The notes below the pieces were generated by a model. It saw only the letters and a list, made by a program, of their open reading frames with translations, did no database searches and was not told the origin of the DNA. DNA of 64,000 nt. Source: Benincasa hispida (taxonomy: Eukaryota > Streptophyta > Magnoliopsida > Cucurbitales > Cucurbitaceae). The position numbers and the translations under genes were made by a program. Below, one piece after another: positions 236 to 64,000 of this stretch (the stretch's first letter is position 1; every line of letters starts with the position of its first letter). Location of the stretch: contig NC_052350.1 of NCBI RefSeq assembly GCF_009727055.1, positions 2,239,395 through 2,303,394 on the forward strand. The letters are read 5' to 3'.

Positions 236-2020
236 CCCGGAGACTCCTTGTCTTTGTAATAGATAGCTTTCTCTTTTTGTGTTTTAAGGCAATTTTACCT
301 GGTTCATCAATTTTTATTGCTTATACATGTGATGTATGGTACTTATATGTCAAAGTGTTTGTCATATAGTTAAAAACCCACCTTAGGTTGTGCAATTACT
401 CATGCATCATGTATTATAAATGTTATAATATTGCATGAAGAAATTACTTGAAAGTATGCGCATGCACCATGAAATATAAGAGTTATATTTTGCATGCAAT
501 GAGCATTATCATGCATCATCCTTTTATTATAAATGTTATAGTCTAAGGGTGAATGGAAGCATGTTTTGCTTGTTTCATTGCGCTTTTTATATAAGTGTTA
601 TATAAAAGAAGTAGCAATGAATGGACAATGCATTGAGCATGACACTTAGGCCGTTTATAAATGTTATGAATGCCTTGTATGTGTTAGCTTCGCAATTTGG
701 TGGTTGTTTCCGTTTATAAGTGTTATAAAGGAAATTAGACCTAAAATCAATAATTCAAAGTTGTATGTGGACTTAGGGTGAACTTGAGTTTTTAAAAGGG
801 TTTTAAAATTGGATTGAGATAGACCTAAGCTTAAGTGGTTCTAAAGAGTTTAATAACCTAGATTAATCTAAAATCGGTTTAATAGGATTAAATTGGTTGG
901 AATAAAAGATAAAATTTGTTGTAAACCTATCTATAAGGGACCTTTTGTCTAAGGTGGGTTCTGGCTAGGCTGGGGTTCTTAAGTTGACGGAAACGTAACA
1001 CCCCTACTTGGGAACCTACCTGGAAAGGTGAATTAAATAGATTTTCAACAAGCATGCGACGTTTTGATCAAAGACTTCGTTAAAGAGTTTAATGGATGAT
1101 GATCAAAAGTTGTTCAACTATCCAAAGTAAATATTACTCTTGGAAAAACCTAAAAGTCACTTAGTTAAAATCCTTAGCCGTGTTTTTTCTAAGTAAGCTA
1201 AACCCTAGGTTATAAAATACTCAGTGGGAGGAGAAGGCGTATTAGATATGTCTATGATTCCACTCACGTTTCTCCCTGTATGTTCACACCGTGAGATTCA
1301 TGCTTGGCCTCGAGATGCCCTAGGATGCATCCCCCTTCGGATGGTGTTTGCATGAGTCAATATCAAGATGGACGGAGAGAGTATTTATAGTAAGTGGGTG
1401 AAGGGTGTGTGCCAACACGTCCTATGGTCTCTGTCATTAGTTCACACCGTGAGATCATTCTGTACGCCCTCGTGTCGCCTTCGATGCGGCCCCCTTCAGA
1501 TGGGTTTTGTGTAGTTGGTTATATCAAGGTGCACTCTATAAATGGATAGGGTCGCTTTAGGTTTTGACCCAATCGGATTTTTTCCCTTCAGATTGGCCTT
1601 TTGGGACGGAGCTCTAGGGCTTAAAATGGCGGGTCACACTTACGGGAGATTATTAAGTAAGTTAATGATCTCTTGGCCAAATCAATGATTTCTTGTCGTT
1701 ATAGGAACAAGAGTTGTTCTGGTATTAATGACTAGTTGAGATCTTCTCAATTTAGAGGAGGGATAACTGACCTCCCTTCGGTGGCTTTTGTCCTAAACTT
1801 TTAAAGCGTCATTACGAAACTAGATGTAACACGGGGTTCATGTTAGTTCTGCTAAAACCTTATTGGATGTTGTTTTGTTTTACAATAAGTATTTACTTAA
1901 AACCTAACGTAGGTCAATGTGTTTTTCTTTTCAGCAACTCGTTAGTATTTTTGTTTAAAGCTTTTAAAAATTCCTGATTTATTACAGTGGAAAGAATCGT
2001 GTGAAACGAATTTCGTAGCA
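236..2020 (+). mobile_element. Untranslated leader of long-LTR copia copy A
   Basis: This region aligns by eye, nearly end to end, with 60690-62450 of copy C. Shared blocks include the hairpin train, a 'gggaacctac' block near 1010, two 'cacaccgtgagat' type blocks near 1288 and 1443, and 'cccccttcggatgg' near 1329. No long open frame exists. Because copy C shows LTR, primer-binding site, leader and pol in that order, this is the leader between the primer-binding site and gag. Its length (about 2.6 kb in copy C) is long for a copia element. Role unknown; packaging or translation control is only a guess. Confidence 0.75.
412..730 (+). repeat. Train of six micro-hairpins, copy A leader
   Basis: Six short inverted repeats with 3-nt loops lie at 412-430 (8-bp arms, loop ATG), 472-490 (8 bp, GAG), 528-540 (5 bp, ATG), 585-607 (10 bp, GTG), 654-670 (7 pairs including a wobble, ATG) and 713-729 (7 bp, GTG). 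The arms are variants of TATATAA/TTATATA. Starts are 56-69 bases apart. Copy C (60863-61176) keeps at least four of them at matching places with changed loops, and copy B keeps two (56242-56313). Confidence 0.75.
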
Positions 2021-2070
2021 AACGACCTCCATCCCACTACTCTCCAAAAGAGGAGACAAGACAGTAAATA

Positions 2071-4645
2071 TGATTTATTGGTCTTAGAGACATGTTTGGT
2101 GAAGAATGATGATTCTGCCTAGATCCTAGATTCAAGTGCTACCAATCATGTCAGTTTCTCTTACCAAGGATTTAGTTCCTGGCAGACGTTGCCATAGGGA
2201 GAAATGACTCTTCGACTCGGTAATGGAGAGGTTGTTTCACCTGTTACTGTAGGCAGGCTGAAGTTATTTGTTGACAAGAAACGTTATCTGTTACTGGATA
2301 ATGTTTTTATAGTTCCTCATATTAAGAGGAACTTAATCTCTGTTTCTTGTCTCATTGAACAAGGCTATACCGTCTCCTTTTCTAAGAATATAGTGTTTAT
2401 TTTCAAGAATGGAATGGAGATTGGTTCTGGTTCAATGGAAAATAACTTATATGTATTAAGGTCGTTAGTCATAAAAGCCTTGTTTAACACTAAAATTTTT
2501 AGTACGACAACAACAGCTAAATGACCAAAGGTTTCTCCAAAGGAAAACGCTTATCTTTGGCATCTAAGGTTAGGTCACATCAACCTCAATAGAATTGAGA
2601 AGTTGGTGAAGAGTGGATTTCTAAAGAGTTTAGAAGAAAACTTCTTGCCGGTATGTGAATCATGCCTCGAAGGTAAAACGACCAAACGACTTTTTACTTG
2701 AAAAGGTTACAGAGCCAAGGAAGCCTTGGAGTTTGTACATTCAGACCTCTGTGGTCCGATGAATGTTAGAGCTCGAGGTGGGTATGGATATTTCATTTTT
2801 TTCATAGATGATTGATTATTCAAGGTTTGGGTATCTCTTCCTAATGCAACATAAGTCTGAAGCTCTTGACAAGTTTAAGTAGTATAAGGCTGAAGTTGAA
2901 AACTTGTTAGGTAAGAAGATAAAAACACTACGATCTGATCGTGGTGGAGAGTATATGGACCTCCAATTCCAGAACTATATGATAGAATATGGGATTGCGT
3001 CCCAACTCTCAGCCCCAGGTACGCCTCAGTAGAATGGTGTATCAAAAAGGAAAAATAGGACCTTGTTGGACATGGTTCGGTCTATGATGAGTTATGCTCA
3101 TCTTCTAGACCCGTTTTGGGGTTATGCAGTGTAGACTGCATGTTATATCCTAAACAACGTTCCCTCGAAAAGTGTTTCTAAAACACCTATTGAGTTATGG
3201 AGAGGCCGTAAAGGTAGTTTACGCCACTTCAAGATTTGGGGTTGTCCGGCACATGTGTTAGTGACTAACCCAAAGAAGTTGGAACCGCATTCGAAGGTTT
3301 GCCTCTTTGTGGGCTATCCCAAGGAAACAAGAGGAGGATACTTCTATGATCTAAGTGAGAACAAAGTGTTTATTTCCACTAATGTTATCTTCTTGAAAGA
3401 AGATCACATGAGGGATCATAAGCCACGAAGTAAGCTCGTTTTATGTGAGATCTCAAGTGAGACTGAGACTGTTGAGGGTTCAACAAGAGTTGTTGAGCAG
3501 GCCGACAGATCAACAAGAGTTGTTGAGGTCGGAACGTCTAGTCAACCAGCGAGATTACCTCGACGTAGTGGGAGGGTTATGAACCCACTGGATCGCTACA
3601 TGAGTTTGACTGAAGCCCAAAACTCATTGCAAATGATGGGGTCGAGGATCTGTTGTCTTTTAAGAAAGCAATGGAGGATGTTGACAAAGATGAATGGGTT
3701 AAGGCCATGAATCAGGAAATGGAGTCTATGTACTTTAATAATGTCTGAGAGCTTGTTGATCCACCTGATGGGGTAAGACCTATTGGGTGTAAGTAGATCT
3801 ATAAGCGAAAGAGAGGTGTAGATGGAAAGGTGCAAACCTTTAAGGCTAGGCTCGTGGCAAAGGGTTATACCCAGGTTGAGGGAGCTGACTATGAGGAAAC
3901 TTTCTCACCTGTTGTCATGCTTAAGTCTATCAGGATTCTCCTGTCCATAGCCACATTTTATGATTATGAAATATGGCAACTGAACATCAAGACTGCCTTT
4001 CTGAATGGTAATCTTGAGGAGACCATCTATATAACTCAACTAGAGGGGTTCGTAGTTCCAGATCAAGAGCAAAGAGTTTGCAAGCTTAATAGGTCCATTT
4101 ATGGGCTGAAACAAGCATCTCGATCTTGGAACATTAGATTTGACACTACTGTCAATTCATTTGGCTTTGACCAGAACGTTGATGAGCCTTGTGTTTACAA
4201 GAAGATCATCAACAGCTCAGCAGCTTTCCTGGTACTGTATGTGGATGATATCCTACTAATTGGGAATAATATAGGATATCTGACTGACATTAAGAGTTGG
4301 CTAGCTGCCCAGTTCCAAATAAAAGATTTGGGTGAGGCACAGTATGTTCTAGGGATCCAGATCATTCGAGATCGCAAGAACAAATGGTTGGCCCTGTCTC
4401 AAACATCGTACATTGATCAAATGTTGATCAGGTATAGGATGCAGGATTTCAATAGGGGTTTGTTACCTTTCATGCATGAAATCGTTCTGTCTAAAGATCA
4501 ATGTCCTAAGACACCTCAAGAGGTTGAGCAGATGAGACGGATTCCCCATGCTTCTGCTGTAGAAAGCTTGATGTATGCTATGTTGTGTACCAGACCCGAT
4601 ATTTGCTATGCAGTAGGGATTGTTAGTCGGTATCACCATGTATAA
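2071..4645 (+). pseudogene. Ty1/copia pol remnant, copy A (protease, integrase, RT)
   Basis: Broken pol reading in several frames. In order: a protease active site reading D-S-S-A-T where family members read DSGAT (near 2130); a pre-integrase zinc region with LRLGHIN and CESCLEGK (2560-2690); an integrase core with frameshifts and stops (2730-3180); the linker (3255-3640); and an open RT frame (3830-4645). The RT keeps FKARLVAKGYTQ, YGLKQASR and YVDD. The motif A Asp is Asn (LNIKTAFLNG near 3983), so it would be dead. Nearly all of gag, including the zinc knuckle, is missing between about 2020 and 2060. The RNase H domain and 3' LTR are absent, because the element stops at 4645. Confidence 0.9.
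3479..3528 (+). repeat. Repeated 17-bp palindrome in the pol linker
   Basis: Two direct copies of tcaacaagagttgttga, each itself an inverted repeat with 7-bp arms and a GAG loop, encode STRVVE twice in the integrase-RT linker of copy A. Confidence 0.7.
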
Positions 4646-5220: not shown

Positions 5221-5404
5221 CCCCTTTACCCGACCCCACTCGGCACAACCAACTTAACTCTACATCCCAACCAGCCACCCAATGCGTCGAACCCAACTGA
5301 CATCTAGATGTGTATAAGAGACAGCCCCTTTACCCGACCCCACTCGGCACAACCAACTGAACTCTACATCCCAACCAGCCACCCAATGCGTCGAACCCAA
5401 CTGA
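5221..5404. other. Assembly artefact: Tn5 mosaic end between two 80-bp copies
   Basis: Positions 5306-5324 read AGATGTGTATAAGAGACAG, the 19-bp Tn5 transposase mosaic end used in Nextera libraries. It is preceded by acatct, the tail of the reverse-complement mosaic end. The 80 bases to the left (5221-5300) and to the right (5325-5404) are the same sequence with one mismatch. This is library-derived sequence built into the assembly, not biology. Confidence 0.95.
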
Positions 5405-7842: not shown

Positions 7843-8583
7843 CTATGCTTCCGCCCAATGAGAAAAATAACGGAACGTAGGAGGCAGTCTATTCCTCGTC
7901 TCCCCTATAGAAACCAGAAGAGGGCTATGATCAGAAATCCCCCACTGACCAACCCTAACCTCCGAATATAGAAAAGCTACCTTCCACGCCTCATTGGACA
8001 AGCATCGATCCAAGCGTCGCAAGATACCATTCCTCTGAAGTTTACTAGTCCAGGTAAACCAGTTACCTGTCACACCCAACTCAACCAGATCTGCCTCCAA
8101 TAACACCTCATCAAACTCCTCCATCTCCCTCAAGCTAGGGCAACCACCAAAATCCTCCGAACTACTACGAATAACATTAAAATCCCCCAAAACAACTCCA
8201 GGAAGTTGCCACGAAGCACACACATCAATCAATTGAGACCACAAGTTCCTCCTCTCACTCACGTGATTAGAGGCATACACAGCACCAATATATACCCTAG
8301 CACTGGATACAACATCCATTAAGGTTCTAGAAATGAATTGATCCCCACTGAAATCAATGAAAAAAATCATAGACACTCTTCCACCATATCACCCAAATCC
8401 TCCCAACTCCCTGCACACTATAGCTACACACATAACTCCAGGCATCACTAAACCTACCCATCACCATACCAAAATTCTCACGACGAACCCTCGTCTCAAG
8501 CAAACAATAGAAAGTAACAGAGGAAGAAGCCAGAAAGTCTGCCACCACCCTACACTTGATAGGGTCATTCAACCCCCTAACAG
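7843..8583 (-). pseudogene. LINE endonuclease (exo-endo-phos) domain
   Basis: The minus-strand frames show the apurinic-type endonuclease signatures in order: LLETRVRREN, then VVLGDFNVI, then NWFTWTS, then RRLDRCLSN, then the catalytic SDHSPLL box. The domain would nick target DNA to prime reverse transcription. The N-terminal part lies in a second frame (8354-8583), and the start is lost in the N gap at 8584-8605. Confidence 0.88.
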
Positions 8584-8605
8584 NNNNNNNNNNNNNNNNN
8601 NNNNN
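8584..8605. other. Assembly gap (22 N)
   Basis: A run of 22 unknown bases inside the LINE endonuclease. The sequence on its right restarts about 440 bases back within the element (see the next entry), so the gap joins overlapping or paralogous contigs. Confidence 0.99.
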
Positions 8606-9019
8606 TACGAATAGCATTAAAATCCCCCAAAACAACTCCAAGAAGCTGCCACGAGGCACACACATCAATCAACTGAGAGCACAAGTTCCTCCTCTCGCTG
8701 ACGTGATTAGAGGCATACACCGCACCAATATGTACCCTAGCACTAGTACAATATCCACTAAAATTCCAGAAATGAATTGATCCCCACTGACATCAATGGA
8801 AAATCATAGACACTCTTCCACCACATCACCCAAATCCTCCCAACTCCCTACACACTATAGCTACACATACAACTCCAGGCATCACCAAACCTACCCATCA
8901 CCATACCAAAATTTTCACGACAAACCCTCGTCTCAAGCAAACAATAGAAAGTAACAGAGGAGGAAGCTAGAAAGTCTGCCACCACCCTACACTTGACAGG
9001 GTCATTCAATCCCCCTAAC
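8606..9019 (-). pseudogene. Second, diverged copy of the endonuclease segment
   Basis: This stretch repeats 8167-8583 in the same order with roughly one change per ten bases and small indels, for example tacgaatagcattaa against tacgaataacattaa. Beyond 9019 the sequence continues as expected for the start of ORF2 and the end of ORF1. It is either a true tandem duplication or, more likely, two LINE copies or haplotypes joined across the gap. Confidence 0.85.
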
Positions 9020-9343
9020 ATTCCAGGAACACCAAATCATGAATCTTGCAAGAGATCACACCTACCACTTTCCACTGGGCCTTTGCCCAAACTCCCAAAC
9101 ATCCCATCCATAACAAACAACGGATCAGGATCTGCCCGTACTAGAGCCAATGCCAACGAGTCTCACCCCCTTATCATACAAAACATCAAACTGATTACGA
9201 TCATCCACATGCTTTACAAACTCTGTAATTCCAGGAGACCCATAAACTACTCTACTCTTCAAGGGTGCCGTACCTCGTGACCCACTCCCACCCCTATGCC
9301 CTACACTTTCTCTATCACGCCTACGTCGACTAACCATAGTAAA

Positions 9344-13905: not shown

Positions 13906-13919
13906 TTTGGTTTTCACAA

Positions 13920-13992
13920 GGCCCAAACGGTTCCTAGGGTTCTCCAAATTACAACCGGTCTACTTCAAAACCCTAATTTGCTCCCTATATAT
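13920..13992 (+). promoter_or_regulatory. RACK1 promoter: site II-like, telo-boxes, TATA
   Basis: Upstream of the RACK1 start are GGCCCA (13920-13925, a site II-like core), a reversed telo-box-like ctagggtt (13935-13942), a perfect telo-box AAACCCTAA (13968-13976) and a TATA run (13986-13992). The TATA run lies about 95 bases before the ATG, leaving room for a 5' UTR of about 65 bases. Site II plus telo-box is the combination known from plant ribosomal-protein and translation-gene promoters, which fits a ribosome-bound scaffold. Confidence 0.6.
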
Positions 13993-14083
13993 ACCATCTC
14001 TTCTTCCTCGCTTCCTTCTCTATCGCTCACAACTTTACATTCTTTACACAGCCAAAGGCGTAGAACCACAGCAGAGCTCAAAA

Positions 14084-15710
14084 ATGGCGGAAGGGCTTGT
14101 TCTGCGAGGCACAATGAGGGCTCACACCGACATGGTGACGGCCATCGCTACTCCCATCGACAATTCTGATATGATTGTCACCTCCTCCCGTGACAAATCC
14201 ATCATCTTATGGCGTCTCACCAAGGAAGAGAAAACCTACGGTGTTCCTCAACGAAGGCTCAATGGTCACTCCCACTTTGTTCAAGATGTTGTCCTCTCAT
14301 CCGACGGTCAGTTCGCCCTATCTGGTTCCTGGGACGGCGAGCTCCGCCTCTGGGACCTCGCTACTGGCGTTACATCCCGTCGATTCGTCGGACATTCCAA
14401 AGATGTTCTCTCCGTCGCCTTCTCCATCGACAATCGCCAGATCGTCTCCGCCTCTCGTGACCGAACGATCAAGCTATGGAACACTCTCGGTGAGTGCAAG
14501 TACACAATCCAGGACGGCGACGCTCATTCTGACTGGGTTAGCTGTGTTAGATTTAGCCCTAACACCCTCCAGCCAACTATTGTTTCGGCGTCTTGGGACA
14601 AGACCGTGAAAGTCTGGAACTTGACCAATTGCAAGTTGAGAGTTACTCTCGCTGGTCACGCTGGTTATGTTAACACGGTGGCTGTTTCGCCGGATGGGTC
14701 TCTGTGCGCTAGCGGAGGGAAAGACGGAGTGATTTTGCTGTGGGATTTGGCTGAGGGTAAGAGACTTTATTCCTTGGATGCCGGATCGATTATTCATGCT
14801 CTTTGTTTCAGCCCCAACAGGTACTGGCTCTGTGCTGCAACTGAGAGCAGTATTAAGATCTGGGATTTGGAGAGCAAAAGCATTGTGGAGGATTTGAAAG
14901 TCGATTTAAAAACCGAGGCGGAGAAAACTGATGACACCCATGCTGCGACTGCCAACAAGATTAAGGTATATTTGTTTTTCCCTGTTCATATTGTACTTGA
15001 CTCATTCTTCAATTCTATCAAATTTGAGGCATTCCAATTGTTCTATGCAAATTTGAGGCATTTCAATTGTTTTTCTATGTTCGTTGATGATTGATCGATT
15101 TATTCTGGTGCCTGCGAATACTAATCACATTGTCTTAGTAGTATACCATGTTATTAACATTCAACTTGATTATTCTGAAGTATGAAATGTCGTATAATTG
15201 GTGTAGTTTCACAATGTTTTCAGAGCTTAATCACGATTCTAACTATAGAGTCACTTACATATGATAGTTGTCCCAATTTTCTTATTGTTTATATATTACC
15301 CATTTGAAGTGCATCCGGAATAGATTAGTGATTTTGTCTATATTTCTATCTGGAAATGTCTTGGGATTATGTTTATGCCTCATAATGAAGTGAAACTTGC
15401 ACATTTCGAAGTCACATGCCGTTCTTTAGTCAAATTTTATGCAAAAATTTAGATATTGGTATGCATGATTCGCAGGGGAAATCTTCCTTTTTGATGACTG
15501 GTTGTCAATTTTTATACAAGCAAACCTCAATTTTTGAACTCGTGCTTCCTTTTGATGAATTTATTCGTTCGTCTATAACTGATTCAAAGTTTTTTGTTGG
15601 ATTTGCAGGTTATTTACTGCACAAGTTTGAGCTGGAGCGCAGATGGGAGCACATTGTTTGGTGGCTACACAGATGGAGTCGTTAGAGTTTGGGGAATTGG
15701 TCGTTATTAG
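14084..15710 (+). CDS. RACK1: RACK1-type seven-bladed WD40 scaffold protein
   Basis: Two exons, 14084-14965 and 15609-15710, with a GT-AG phase-0 intron of 643 bp. They join to 327 codons, the length of Arabidopsis RACK1A. Seven WD blades end in W43, W90, W132, W178, W220, W260 and W322, with GH dipeptides at 61, 103 and 191. The R36-D37-K38 triad known to hold RACK1 on the 40S subunit is present. The protein sits near the mRNA exit channel of the ribosome and docks signalling proteins such as kinases and G-protein partners. The start is the ATG in caaaATGGCGGAAGG; an in-frame extension upstream to 13907 would include the TATA region and is rejected. The second exon encodes only the last 33 residues and closes blade seven, ending GIGRY. 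No damage is seen. Confidence 0.97.
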
Positions 15711-27928: not shown

Positions 27929-28307
27929 TATTATAAATATTATGATAATAGATGTTCTTTCTTAATATCCATTGACCATGTGTTATGCCTCCATTTTCCA
28001 AAGTGTTGTGCATGTGTCTCAATGTTACACATTATTAGTGTTCATATAATTCACCTCCTACTTGCCAAAATGACTATAAATAATGATATTTGGTGGGTTT
28101 TGGAAAACACATATTGGACAAATTCCATGAAAATTGGATAAAGTAGAGAATTTAGAGAAATTTCTTATTTTATATTTTGCTAATTTAATTAATTTATATA
28201 TATATATATCATGTTTAATTTATTTTATTATCATATTATATTATATTCATTTAATATTATATTTTATTGGTATTCGTTTTTTCGTTGCGTTTCTCAAGTT
28301 CACAACA
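27929..28307 (+). mobile_element. 5' LTR of the second copia family
   Basis: 379 bp, matching the 3' LTR at 34795-35172 and the LTR at 39959-40341. Shared blocks include tattataaatatta at the start, ccattgaccatgtgt, tttggtgggttttgga and tattggtat near the end, closing at cacaaca. The flanking pentamers (TGAAT left, TAAAT right of the 3' LTR) agree at four of five bases. Confidence 0.88.
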
Positions 28308-33326: not shown

Positions 33327-34794
33327 TTACACTAAGATATTTAATTGGTCTGACTGTGTATGAAAATCTGGACATGCATCTTGATCTCTTGATAATGATA
33401 TTTAAATGAGAAACCTAGAAGGATTTAAGGTACTTGAAACGTATAAATCAAATTAAAGAGAATTGTATTCAATAAAGTTATAGAGATCATTATATGGATT
33501 GAAATAATCAAGACGAATGTGGTACAATCGCTTGAGTAGATATTTGTTTAATAAGGATATCAAAACAATCAAATATGTCCATGTGTTTTTATAAAGAAAT
33601 GACAGTCAGGATTTTGCTATTATTATTGTATATGTTGATGATTTAAATATAATTGGAACTCCTAAAGAGCTTTCAAAGGCAATAGAATATCTTAAGAAAG
33701 AATTTGAGATGAAGGATCTAGCATATCTTAAAAACAAAATTTTGCCTTGGCTTACAAATTAAGCATTTAACATATGAAATATTTGTTCATCAGTCAACTT
33801 ATATAGGAAAAATTTTCAAAAGGTTCTATATGGAAAAAAATACATCCACTGAACATTCCAATGGAAGTTCGTTCACTAGATGTGAAGAAAGATATATTTC
33901 GATCTCGAGACGATAATGAAGAACTTCTTGGTCCTAAAATACCATATCTTAGTGCAATTGATGCACTTATGTATCTTGTTAATAATACAAGACTAGATGT
34001 TGCATTTTCAATAAATTTATTAGCAAGATATAGTTCTTCTCTAACAAAAAGAAATTGAAACGAAATTAAGCATATACCCGTTATCTTCGAGGAACGATTG
34101 ATATAGATTATTTTTATTCAAATAAATCAAATTTTGATCTAGTTGGTTATGCAGATTCTGGATATTTATATGATCCACACAAAGCTAGACCTCAAATAGG
34201 TTATCTATTCACATGTGGAGGAATTTTTGTATCATGGTGGTCGATGAAATAGACCATAATAACTATTTTCTCAAATCATGGTGAAATTCTTGCAATTCAC
34301 GAGCCTAGTCGAGAATGTATATGACTAAGAACAATGACAACACATTCGTGAAACATGTGGTTTGTCTTCTAATACAAATCTTCCAACAATATTATACGAA
34401 GACAACACAACATGTATATCCCAAATCAAATGAGAATATATTAAAGGAGATAGAAAAAAACATATTTCATCAAAACTTTTCTACAATCATGATCTTGAAG
34501 AAAATGGCAACATCATTGTAGAACAAATTTTTTCGAAAGATAACCCGATAGATTTATTTACAAAGGCATTACCTATCACAATATTTGAAAAACTGGTGCA
34601 CAACATTGAAATGCGGCGACTTAGAGATCTCAAGTGATGTTTCCATGAGGGGAAGTAAATACACTTTTTAGAAGTATAAATTATATGAAATATATACTCT
34701 TTTCCCTTCACTAGGATTTTTTTTCCATTGGGTTTTTTTCCTAGTAAGGTTTTAACGAGACATATTTCATATATATAATGAACATAAGGGGGAG
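33327..34794 (+). pseudogene. Copia RT-RNase H remnant, second family (3' part)
   Basis: Continues the RT interrupted at 31463. TVYENLDMH follows the junction, IIVYVDDLNIIG (YVDD box) lies near 33630, and an open piece at 33861-34058 has RLDVAFSINLLARYSS. An RNase H part follows (YADSGYLYDPHKARPQIGYL near 34150, then FVSWWSMK). Stops and frameshifts occur throughout. The polypurine tract aagggggag (about 34785-34794) directly precedes the 3' LTR. Confidence 0.88.
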
Positions 34795-35172
34795 TATTAT
34801 AAATATTATGATAATAGATGCCCATTAGATGATCATGCTTAATGTCCATTGACCATGTGTTATGCCCTAATTTCCCAAAATGTTGTCCATGTGTCTCAAC
34901 ATTACACATTGTCCATGTAATCCACTCAAACTGCTTGTAAATAGTAGCATTTGGTGGGTTTTGGAAGACACATATATTGAACAAATTCTATGAAAATTGA
35001 AGAAAGTGGAGAATCCAAAGAAGTTTCTTATTTTATATTTTGTTAATTTAATTTTTTTTATTTATATATTAGGGTTAATTTACTTTAATATTTATTTATT
35101 TATTATCTATATTATTTTATATTATATTTTATTGGTATCTGTATTCCCGTTGTGTTCCTCAATTTCATAACA
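34795..35172 (+). mobile_element. 3' LTR of the second copia family, copy 1
   Basis: 378 bp starting tattataaatattatg and ending cataaca. It differs from the 5' LTR at a clearly visible number of bases and indels, so the insertion is not recent. Confidence 0.88.
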
Positions 35173-35829
35173 TAAATATGATTTTGAATATATGTCAAAG
35201 ATGCAACCATTTTAGTCTTAAACTTTGAAATTCATCCCATTATAAATTTGCAACTTAAACATGAATAAATGTTGCAATATTAGTAGTAGACTTTAGAGAC
35301 TTTTGCAAATTTAGCCCTCTAATGAGTTTTAGCCTCAAATATAGTTTAAAAAAAAATGTGTTCTCTTATACATTAAATGAATATTATAAAACATATATAC
35401 AATATGAATAGATCAATTTTTAGAGAATAAATGACAGTAGAGTCAAGAAATTTATGACAAATTTTGACGAATTAATTTCTGTATTAGTCATGAAAGTTAT
35501 TATTATCCAAAACTTTATTTTATTAAAATCAATAAGCAAAAATTCTACATTGTTATCTTTTTAGTAAGTAAATCAATAAAGATCAAATCAAAAGTAAAAA
35601 TTTAACACTTATTTAAATTTAGATTCTGATTCCATGAAATTGAAAGTTTAGATTTAACAAACAATAGAATTTGATAAGCTAATGATAAAAAATGATTATT
35701 TTTTTTAAAAAGTAAAATAGTTTTTAAATATCTAATTTCAAATGAAGTAGTAGATGTCAATTTTTCTAGCACGACAACTATGATGATGAGAAATCGAATT
35801 GTCTACTTTAGAAAGAAAGGTCTGATTCC
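35173..35829 (+). repeat. Duplicated flank, copy 1
   Basis: This non-element sequence downstream of the 3' LTR is repeated at 40342-40985. Shared blocks include ttagtcttaaactttgaaattcat, tttgcaaatttagccctctaatgag and gtagtagatgtcaatttttctagc. Sharing of flank as well as element shows a segmental duplication, not two independent insertions. Confidence 0.9.
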
Positions 35830-39386: not shown

Positions 39387-39958
39387 ATTATTTATTTACA
39401 TGTGAAGGAACTGTTGTATTGTGGTGGTTAGTGAAACAGGCCATAACGGCTATTTTCTTAAATCATGCTGAACTTCTTGCAATTCACGAGGCTAGTAAAA
39501 AATGTGTATGACTAAGATCAATGAGTCAACATATTCGTGAAACATGTGGTTTGTCTTCTAATAAAAATCTTCCAACGGTATTATATGAAGACAACATAAC
39601 ATGCATATCTCAAATCAAATGAAGATATAGTAAATGAGATAGAAAAAACATATTTCACCAAAACTTTTTTCTATAATCATGATCTTGAAGAAAATGGCGA
39701 TATCATTGTAGAACAAATTTGTTTGAAAGATAACCCGATAAACTTATTTACAAAGGCATTACCTACCACAATCTTTGAAAAACTGGTGCACAACATTGGG
39801 ATGTGGTGATTTAGAGATGTTTCCATGAGGAGGAGTAAATATACTTTTTAGAAGTATAAATTATATGAAATATGTACTCTTTTCCCTTTACTAAGATTTT
39901 TCCTAGTAAGGTTTAACGAGACATATTTCATATATATAATAGACATCTAAGGGGGAGT
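39387..39958 (+). pseudogene. Copia RNase H tail, second family, copy 2
   Basis: Matches 34196-34794 in order (for example tgtggtttgtcttctaat and cttgcaattcacgag), with stops in all frames. It begins at the exact start of the gypsy LTR, so the gypsy element was inserted within the RNase H region. A polypurine tract (ctaagggggag) precedes the LTR. Confidence 0.88.
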
Positions 39959-40341
39959 ATTATAAATATTATAATAATAGATGTCCATTAGATGATCATG
40001 CTTAGTGTCCATTGACCATGTGTCATGCCCTAATTTCCTAAAGTGTTGTCCATGTGTCTCAACATTACAAATTGTCCATGTAATCCACCTTTTACTTTCC
40101 AAATTGCTAGCGTTTGGTGGGTTTTGGAAGACACACATTGGGCAAATTTCATGAAAATTGAAGAAAGTGGAGAATTAAGAGAAATTTCTTATTTTATTTT
40201 TTGCTAATTTATTTTTTGTTTATTTATATATTATGTTTAATTTACTTTAATATTTATTTATTTTGTTATTATATTATATTTATTTTACTATTATATTTTA
40301 TTGGTATTCATGTTCCTATTGTGTTCCTCAAGTTCATAACA
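39959..40341 (+). mobile_element. 3' LTR of the second copia family, copy 2
   Basis: 383 bp, collinear with 34795-35172, starting tattataaatatta and ending cataaca. Confidence 0.88.
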
Positions 40342-40985
40342 TGCATGTTTAAATATGTGAAAGATGCATTAATTTTAGTCTTAAACTTTGAAATTCATCA
40401 AATTATAAATTTTCAACTTAAACATGAATAAATGTTGCAACATTAATAGTAGACTTTAGAGGCTTTTGCAAATTTAGCCCTCTAATGAGTTGTAGCCTCA
40501 AATATAGTTTTTGAAGAAAATGTGTTCTCTTATACATTAAATGAATATCATAAAACACATATACAATATTAATAGATCAATTTTTAGAGAATAAATGCCA
40601 GTAGAGTCCAGGAATTTATGATAAATTTTGACGAAGTTATTCAATTGTTAATTTATGATAAAGTTATTATTATCCAAAACTTTAGTTCATTAAAATCAAT
40701 AAGCAAAAATTCTACATTGTTATCTTTTTAGTAAGTAAATTAATAAAAATCAAATCAAAAGTAAAAATTTAACACTGATTTAGTCCAATTCCATGAAACT
40801 GAAAGTTTAGAGTTAGAAACAATAGAATTTGGTAAGTTAACGATAAAAATTGATTTTTTTTTAAAAAATTTAAAAGTAAAATAGTTTTTAAATATCTAAT
40901 TTTAAATAAAGTAGTAGATGTCAATTTTTCTAGCCCAACAACTATGATAATGAGAAATTGAATCGTCTACTTTAGAAAGAAAGAT
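40342..40985 (+). repeat. Duplicated flank, copy 2
   Basis: Collinear with 35173-35829, with scattered substitutions and short indels (for example cattaatagtagactttagaggc against tattagtagtagactttagag). Homology stops near 40985, matching the breakpoint at 35829 in copy 1. Confidence 0.9.
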
Positions 40986-52696: not shown

Positions 52697-52860
52697 TATT
52701 TGTGATAAACAGTGATAGAGTTCTATCATTGTCTATCTGAGATAAATAGTGATAGTGTTCTACCATTGTCTATCCGAGATAAACATTGATATATTTCAAT
52801 GAATGGGGTTTTAAAGGATGGGGATGACTTCAATGAATGATAGAGTTCTATCATTTAAGG
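52697..52860. repeat. GATAGA dyad minisatellite, right half
   Basis: Continues the array of 49672-49789 beyond the solo LTR, with ataaacagtgatagagttctatcattgtctat-type hairpins and worn copies. Confidence 0.8.
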
Positions 52861-53084
52861 ATTTGACTTAAAGAGGGGGGACATAGTTGCAATGAATGTG
52901 TGATGTACAATTAGGAAAACAATCATGGTCTGTATATTTAGTGATAGACAATGGTGCAACTACTGTCTCTTATACACATCTAGATGTGTATAAGAGACAG
53001 GTATAGTTCTATCATTTAAGGATTTGACTTAAAGAGGGGGGACATAGTTGCAATGAATGTGTGATGTACAATTAGGAAAACAAT
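52844..53084. other. Assembly artefact: full Nextera mate-pair junction between 80-bp copies
   Basis: Positions 52963-52981 read CTGTCTCTTATACACATCT and 52982-53000 its exact reverse complement AGATGTGTATAAGAGACAG. Together they form the 38-bp circularisation junction of Nextera mate-pair libraries. The 80 bases at 52844-52923 recur identically at 53005-53084 on the other side. The sequence from 52924 to 53004 is therefore library-derived or misplaced. Confidence 0.97.
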
Positions 53085-61176: not shown

Positions 61177-62460
61177 TGGAAATTAGAACTAAAATTGATA
61201 AGAAAGAGTTGCATGTGGACTTAGGCGAACTCATGTTTTAAAAGAGTTTTAAAATTGGATTGAGATAGACCTAAGTTCAAGGTTCTAATGGGATCAGCAA
61301 CCTAAGTTTAATCTTTTTAAATTAGTTTAATAGGAATAAATTGATTGGCATAAAAGATTAAATTTGTATTAAATCTATTTAGCTATAAGGGACCTTTTGT
61401 CTAAGGCGGGTTCTATCTAGGCTGGGGTATTTAAGCTGATGGAAACGGAACACCCCTACCTGGGAACCTACTTGGAAAGGTAAATTAGATAGATTTTCTA
61501 CAAGCATTCGACAGTTGATCAAAGACTCCGTTAAAGAGTTTAATGGATGATGATCAAAAGTTGTTCAACTATCCAAGGTAAAAGTTACTATTGGGCAAAC
61601 CTAAATAGTCACTTAGTTAAATTTTTAGCCGTTTTTTTTCTAAGTAAACTAAACTCTAGGTTATAAAATACTCAGTGAGAGGAAGAGATATATATGATAT
61701 GTCAATGATTTCACTCACGTTTCTCCCTGAATGTTCACTCCTTGAGATTCATGCTTAGCCTCGTGGTGCCCTGAGAGCATCCCCCTTCGGATGGTGTTTT
61801 CATGGGTCAATATCAAGGTGGATGGAGAGAGTGTTTATAGTAAGTGGGTAAAGGGTGTGTGTTAACATGTCCTGCGGTCTCCTTCATTGGTTCACATCGT
61901 GAGATCATTCTTGCACTCCCTTGTGGTGCCCTGGGAGCGTCCCACTTCAGATGGGTTTTGTGCAGTTAGTCAATGTCAAAGTGAACTCTAGAAATGGATA
62001 GGGTCACTTTAGTTTTTGTCCCAATTGGAAATTTTCCCTTTGGATTGGCTGCTTGGGGCGGAACTCTAGGGCCTACAATGATAGGTCACACTTATGGGAA
62101 ATTGTTAAGTAAGTTAATGATTTCTTGACCAAATCAATGATGGTTAGTCGTTATAGAAGCAAAAGTTGTTTTGGTATTAATGGCTGGTTGAGAATATCTC
62201 AATTCAGAGGAGGGATAAATTGACCACCCTTCGACGGCTTTTGTCCTAAACCATTGAAGCGTCATTACGAAACTAGATGTCACACAGGGTTCATGTTAGT
62301 TTTGCTAATCCATACTGGATGTTGTATGCTTTTCAACGAGTATTTGCATAGAACCTAATGTAGGTTAATGTGTTTGTTTTTTTAGCAATATGTTTGATTT
62401 TCATTAAATGCCTCTAGTTTCACCGATTTCATTTAGCGGAAAGAGTCTTGTAAAACGTAT

Positions 62461-64000
62461 GTCATGGTAAACGACCCCAAGTTTGTCATGGTTGAGGAGT
62501 GTCCTCAAGTTCCGACTCTTGATGCACCACGAAGTGTTCGTAATGCATATGTGGTATGGATGAAGGCTAATTCATTGGCCTGACTTCACATATTGGCTAG
62601 CATATAATGCTTTGGTCAAAAGGGTTAAGAACATGGTTATTGTACGTGAGATCATGGACTCGTTGCAAGAATTATTTGAACATCAGTTCTTACTTTTTGA
62701 GCACAGAGGGATAGATGACAAAGATACCAGTAGTGTCAGTTCCCAACTTAATCTCCAGAAAGAGAAAGCAAGTGTTGTTGACTCTGTTAAAGTTCATCAA
62801 TGAGAAGTTTTCTTCGAAATGGAACTTGAAGCTTATTTAGGTTCCGATACTGATCCCACTACTCTCCAAAAGAGTCTAAAGATAGTAAATATGACTTATT
62901 GGTTTTGGAGACGTGTTTGGTAGAGAATGATGATTCTGACTGGATCCTTGATTTGGGTGCCACCAACCATGTCAGTTTCTCTTACCAAGGATTTAGATCT
63001 TGGCAAACGTTGCCAAAAGGAGAGTTGACTCTTCGTGTCGGTACCGATGAGGTTGTTTCAGCTATTTCTGTAGGTAGACTAATGTTATTTTTGGACAAGA
63101 AACATTATCTGTTACTGGATAATGTTTTTGTAATTCCTCATATCAAGAGGAACTTAATCTCGGTTTCTTGTCTCATTGAACAAGGCTATACCGTCTCCTT
63201 TTCTGAGAGTAAAGTGTTTATTTTCAAGGCTGGTATGGAGATTGGTTTTGGTTCAATGGAAAGTAACTTGTATGTACTAAGGCCGTTAGTCATAAAAGCC
63301 ATGTTTAATACTGAAATGTTTAGTACGACTACAACAGCTAAAAGACCAAAGGTTTCTCCTAAAGAAAACACCCATATTTGGTATCTAAGGTTAGGTCACA
63401 TCAACCTCAATAGGATTGAGCAGTTGGTGAAATGTGGACTTCTAAAGAGTTTAGAAGAAAATTCCTTGCCGGTGTGTGAATCATGCCTTGAAGGCAAGAT
63501 GATCAAATGACCTTTTACTGGAAAAGGTTACAGAGCCAAGGAAACCTTGGAGCTTATACATTCAGACCTCTGTGATCCGATGAGTGTTAGAGCTTGAGGT
63601 GGGTATAAATATTTCATCTCTTTCATAGATGATTATTCAAGGTACGAGTATCTATACCTAATGCAACGTAAGTCTGAAGCCCTTGACAAGTTCAAGGAGT
63701 ATAAGGCTGAAGTTAAGAACTTGTTAGGTAAGAAGATAAAAACACTACGATCTGATCATGGTGGAGAGTACATGGACCTTCAATTCCAGAACTATATGAT
63801 AGAACATGGAATTATGTCCCAACTCTCGGCCCCAGATACACCTTAGTAGAATGGTGCATCAGAAAGGAAAAAAGAACCTTGTTGGACATGGTTTGGTCTA
63901 TGATGAGTTATGCTCATCTTTCATACTCGTTTCGGGATTTTGTAGTGGAGACTGCATGTTATATTCTGAACAACGCTCCCTCAAAAAGTGTTTATGAAAC
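62461..64000 (+). pseudogene. Copia gag-pol remnant, copy C (cut by window edge)
   Basis: gag is reduced to two short pieces: DPKFVMVEECPQVPTLDAPR (about 62475-62580, then stops) and REIMDSLQELFEHQ (62649 on), with the zinc knuckle missing. Pol is open from 62899 to 63510. It has a protease site D-L-G-A-T where the family has DSGAT, the YLRLGHINLNR and CESCLEGK integrase zinc motifs, and then the integrase core with FISFIDDYSR, LRSDHGGEY and a broken NG-x-SE box near 63850. Stops and shifts interrupt it. The RT lies beyond the window. It is more intact than copy A. Confidence 0.92.

Follow-up and report, generated by a model that had tools for sequence, protein, structure and literature searches.

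Mate-pair junction adapter between 80-base duplicates at two sites of a Benincasa hispida scaffold: probable library carry-over with a false local duplicate

The window considered here, that is, the whole stretch of DNA that was analysed, comprises 64,000 nucleotides (64 kb) of a Benincasa hispida scaffold (NC_052350.1, positions 2,239,395 to 2,303,394 of the forward strand). It includes an open reading frame for a RACK1-like WD40 protein (13907-15094), whose two best named matches by E-value, among the best 120 of 6960, are from Ulmus minor (94%) and Cannabis sativa (91%), both of the Rosales. Medicago (94%, with 96% query coverage) and Senna tora (92%) in the same 120 are about as close, so that these matches point to a eudicot and to nothing narrower. 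Repeated blocks of 86-90% identity occur at 928-3184 and 61380-64000, about 60.4-60.8 kb apart, and adjoin open reading frames read as copia-like. At a strict limit of 1e-135, a copia-like frame had a single match, at 80%. A diverged direct duplication connects 34338-35615 with 39527-40782, at a spacing of about 5.16-5.19 kb and with 78-96% identity by block, and related blocks are also found near 27949-28307. Lastly, a run of 22 Ns (8584-8605) lies between two copies of about 415 bases each, 8166-8582 and 8606-9020, which show scattered base differences and a few indels and are 93-95% identical in ungapped blocks; the whole of 8166-9020 looks as if two haplotypes or paralogues had been joined head to tail across a gap in the scaffold.

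Of a different kind are two short sites (Table 1). At site 1, a 19-base mosaic end (ME) on the plus strand (52963-52981) is followed directly by its reverse complement on the minus strand (52982-53000), with no mismatch in either arm and no base separating the two, exactly as a preliminary description made from the letters of this region had it. That description also placed identical 80-bp blocks on either side of the junction, and this holds in every coordinate. The two copies are identical, with a spacing of 161 bases, and the match is bounded by a G/T difference at its left edge and a C/A difference at its right edge. The order across the site is thus block, 39 bases, 38-base junction, 4 bases, block, neither block being in direct contact with the junction. 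The 39-base piece is presumably genomic sequence running up to the end of a fragment; it has no second copy anywhere in the 64-kb window, including the 10.9 kb downstream, the longest exact word shared with it being 13 bases, on the minus strand, at 52762. The four bases on the other side, GTAT, presumably mark where the fragment begins, and agree at two of four positions with the ATAG that stands before the left copy (52840-52843). Both pieces call for an explanation in addition to that of the junction and the second block.

Table 1. Coordinates of the junction sequences and flanking blocks at the two sites in the 64-kb window
Feature	Position	Strand	Remarks
38-base mate-pair junction (site 1)	52963..53000	.	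exact match in both arms; 38-mer printed in PMC7357533
Left exact 80-base copy (site 1)	52844..52923	+	sequence self-comparison
Right exact 80-base copy (site 1)	53005..53084	+	sequence self-comparison
39-base piece, left copy to junction (site 1)	52924..52962	+	no second copy in window
4-base piece, junction to right copy (site 1)	53001..53004	+	GTAT
Truncated 24-base junction (site 2)	5301..5324	.	last 5 ME bases plus complete reverse-complement ME (5306-5324)
Left 80-base copy (site 2)	5221..5300	+	one mismatch to right copy (5255 T, 5359 G)
Right 80-base copy (site 2)	5325..5404	+	directly adjoins ME

A third exact ME, on the minus strand at 5306-5324, is part of a second site with the same succession of block, junction and block (site 2, 5221-5404), of which the preliminary description made no mention. 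Site 2 lies 47.7 kb from site 1 and has a repeat period of 104 bases, and the duplicated blocks of the two sites do not match each other. Its base 5300 (A) can be assigned either to the left block or to the ME. When the window is searched for exact direct 34-mer repeats 41-300 bases apart, they are found only at sites 1 and 2. Site 2 is the strongest evidence within the window for a systematic cause, and because the block-junction-block mistake recurs there, we regard it as an error in the data rather than as biology.

Chance as the origin of the ME matches is ruled out. In 100 dinucleotide-preserving shuffles of the window, with up to 3 mismatches allowed, matches to the 19-mer averaged 0.01 and no shuffle had three or more, as against three exact matches in the real window. 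All 12-mers of the ME that occur in the window fall at these three places. Nine other adapter, linker and loxP strings, one of them doubtful in its label, matched the window exactly over no more than 11 bases.

We take the sequence of each arm of the 38-mer to be the Nextera mosaic end, presumably an engineered hybrid of the outer and inner ends of Tn5. A literature search on both Tn5 end sequences found no paper, and we do not claim that they are absent from print. Relative to a mate-pair circularisation junction adapter of the Nextera long mate-pair type, site 1 has the identical 38 bases and no difference, whereas site 2 retains no more of the first arm than its last 5 bases. The same 38 bases are given in PMC7357533 as a biotin-labelled ring adapter, which in that protocol is ligated to sonicated fragments of about 4 kb for circularisation, unlike Nextera tagmentation. 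The text of the Skewer paper describes how Nextera long mate-pair tagmentation puts junction adapters on both ends of a fragment and how the circles are then sheared; according to that paper the junction sits in the middle of the fragment in all proper fragments, which is why trimming is essential. The letters of the ME occur nowhere in that text. Judged from its letters, 52963-53000 is synthetic library DNA, a circularisation junction. The preliminary description had called it a Nextera mate-pair junction; the circularisation part of that name is borne out by the printed 38-mer (PMC7357533). Nextera tagmentation is the likely source, other sources being possible.

The same 38-mer is present in assemblies of unrelated organisms, among plasmid, viral and bacterial sequences alike, as would be expected of mate-pair carry-over. 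Among plasmids, 5 of 72,556 records contain it. Viral sequences have it in 7 stretches, which come from 6 contigs, and four of these stretches lie no more than 10 bases from a contig end. Bacterial genome contigs contribute at least 120 stretches, with 147 junctions among the matches listed; 50,697 phage records gave no match. Among the listed bacterial matches, 53 of the 147 junctions have an N within 300 bases, as against 129 of 1102 control positions, and this excess near Ns indicates that the junctions gather at gaps.

For a strict comparison of the flanks, only the 120 listed bacterial stretches were used, and for each junction the 300 bases to its left were compared with the 300 to its right to find their longest exact direct repeat. 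Of the 147 listed junctions, 26 had a neighbouring junction close by, 15 lay close to where their stretch ends and 42 had an N within 300 bases; without these, 64 remained, and control positions were drawn from the same stretches. Among these listed matches, 15 of the 64 junctions are flanked by direct duplicates of 20 bases or more (controls, 6/1181), and 10 by duplicates of 50 bases or more (controls, 1/1181). The 15 come from 8 assemblies, as judged by record title, and the 64 tested junctions are not independent, since several loci belong to one assembly. A looser comparison took in 132 viral, bacterial and plasmid loci with 160 junctions, of which 123 were testable, neighbouring junctions being kept; 29 of the 123 had a duplicate of 20 bases or longer, compared with 3 of 502 controls, the bacterial part again being drawn from the matches listed. 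The preliminary description had proposed that an untrimmed library molecule was built into the consensus, and this is supported both by site 2, with its own 80-base duplicate, and by the figure of 15/64 against 6/1181 among the matches listed elsewhere.

In 11 of these 15 listed cases the duplicate touches the junction on both sides, and the blocks are 20-158 bases long. The other four have left/right offsets of 4/0, 80/0, 40/7 and 73/0 bases, so that site 1, with its 39/4, is not alone in its geometry. With 15 of the 64 junctions bearing a duplicate of 20 bases or more and 49 bearing none of that length, junction plus duplicate is best described as a recurring, though not universal, signature of assembly. 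The two sites thus resemble adapter carry-over into other published assemblies, plasmid, viral and bacterial, in which the 38-mer is likewise found, nearer to Ns more often than control positions are and sometimes with duplicates. They differ from the published bacterial cases, with their duplicates of 20-158 bases among the matches listed, in lying on a plant scaffold and in having blocks of 80 bases at both sites.

Adapter carry-over as such is almost certain on this evidence. That it came together with a false local duplicate, the two forming one assembly artefact, is the reading we favour, with a probability of roughly 0.9. In the mate-pair library, a junction adapter would have been attached to both ends of each fragment, and circularisation would have joined the two as an ME followed by a reverse-complement ME. 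Reads containing the junction would then have been incompletely trimmed and have entered the assembly or the filling of gaps, giving at both sites a consensus in which an 80-base block runs into junction sequence, after which the block begins anew. Two routes to such a consensus can be envisaged. By route (a), a short fragment would have been circularised on itself, its length being about 123 bases in the case of site 1 and about 80 in that of site 2; its reads would have joined genomic reads in the assembly graph, and the assembler would have gone once round the resulting loop. By route (b), a contig whose start bears the adapter would have been placed after a contig that it truly overlaps by about 80 bases, the two being left unmerged because the adapter tip blocked their merging. 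The contact of the duplicate with both sides of the junction in 11 of 15 cases, among the matches listed, agrees with what route (a) predicts; that both sites share a length of 80 is in line with an overlap parameter of the assembler, as in route (b). So far as we can infer the history of the reads and contigs, the odds between the two routes are about even.

An ordinary mate pair of several kilobases would be expected to have 52924-52962 again downstream of 53001, and it is less favoured at site 1 because those 39 bases are not found again in the 10.9 kb that follow. The missing second copy may also reflect a short circle, a paralogous fragment, a gap or an insert that reaches past the window. 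Several observations count against carry-over with a false duplicate. First, among the matches listed, 49 of the 64 junctions tested elsewhere lack any duplicate as long as 20 bases. Secondly, the truncation of site 2, the one-base difference between its copies and the mismatch of two in four bases at site 1 have to be put down, in addition, to variation in the sequence or to errors in the reads. Thirdly, the 38-mer had no match among the phage records. Lastly, the head-to-tail duplicate at 8166-9020, at its gap of 22 Ns, carries no adapter, so duplicates in this window also arise without one.

This last duplicate bears as well on the best of the alternatives, that the 80-base tandem duplicate is genuine in the plant, and that the assembler broke down there, leaving a gap that came to be closed with an untrimmed read. 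Assemblers do fail at repeats, and diverged, related short repeats surround site 1, in keeping with such a history, as is the known adapter-free duplicate at 8166-9020. These nearby repeats, however, share no more than 15 exact bases with the site 1 block, and sites 1 and 2 account for every exact 34-mer in the 64 kb that is directly repeated at a distance of 41-300 bases; a genuine origin would have to account for two unrelated 80-base duplicates, each with an adapter inside it. We therefore consider a genuine duplicate improbable.

Insertions by transposition fare far worse. Tn5 target duplications are 9 bases long. A natural element of the Tn5/IS50 type, or two terminal repeats that remained on their own after transposition, would explain why a transposase end is repeated here perfectly in inverted orientation, but the ME is an engineered hybrid of Tn5 ends, the arms have no base between them and hence neither transposase nor cargo, and the 9-base flanks are unequal at both site 1 and site 2, which leaves this origin with a negligible probability. 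Equally negligible is the possibility that the plant had been transformed or treated with a transposon and so carries an engineered mosaic-end insertion, which would account for the identity with a laboratory adapter but is contradicted by the lack of any cargo or marker between the arms, by the presence of two sites, one of them truncated, and by the recurrence of this 38-mer across many assemblies that are unrelated. With no cargo and no 9-base duplication, a Tn5 insertion, whether natural or engineered, is rejected.

The favoured reading, carry-over with a false local duplicate, invites a generalisation that we put forward tentatively, at somewhat less than even odds: untrimmed junctions may leave a scar of block, junction and block, in which the length of the block would reflect either very short self-circles or the assembler overlap, and pairs of duplicates lying close together could then serve to point out false joins, even after removal of the adapter itself. 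If true, this would be an idea for quality control and not for biology. Since two carry-overs lie within 64 kb, screening the scaffold for adapters is advisable. Neither 52844-53084 nor 5221-5404 should be read as a genomic tandem duplication or as a palindromic element, and any primers, probes or repeat annotation built on these stretches would be unreliable; what we describe is ordinary adapter carry-over, most likely with a false local duplicate, and it matters for the quality of the data only.
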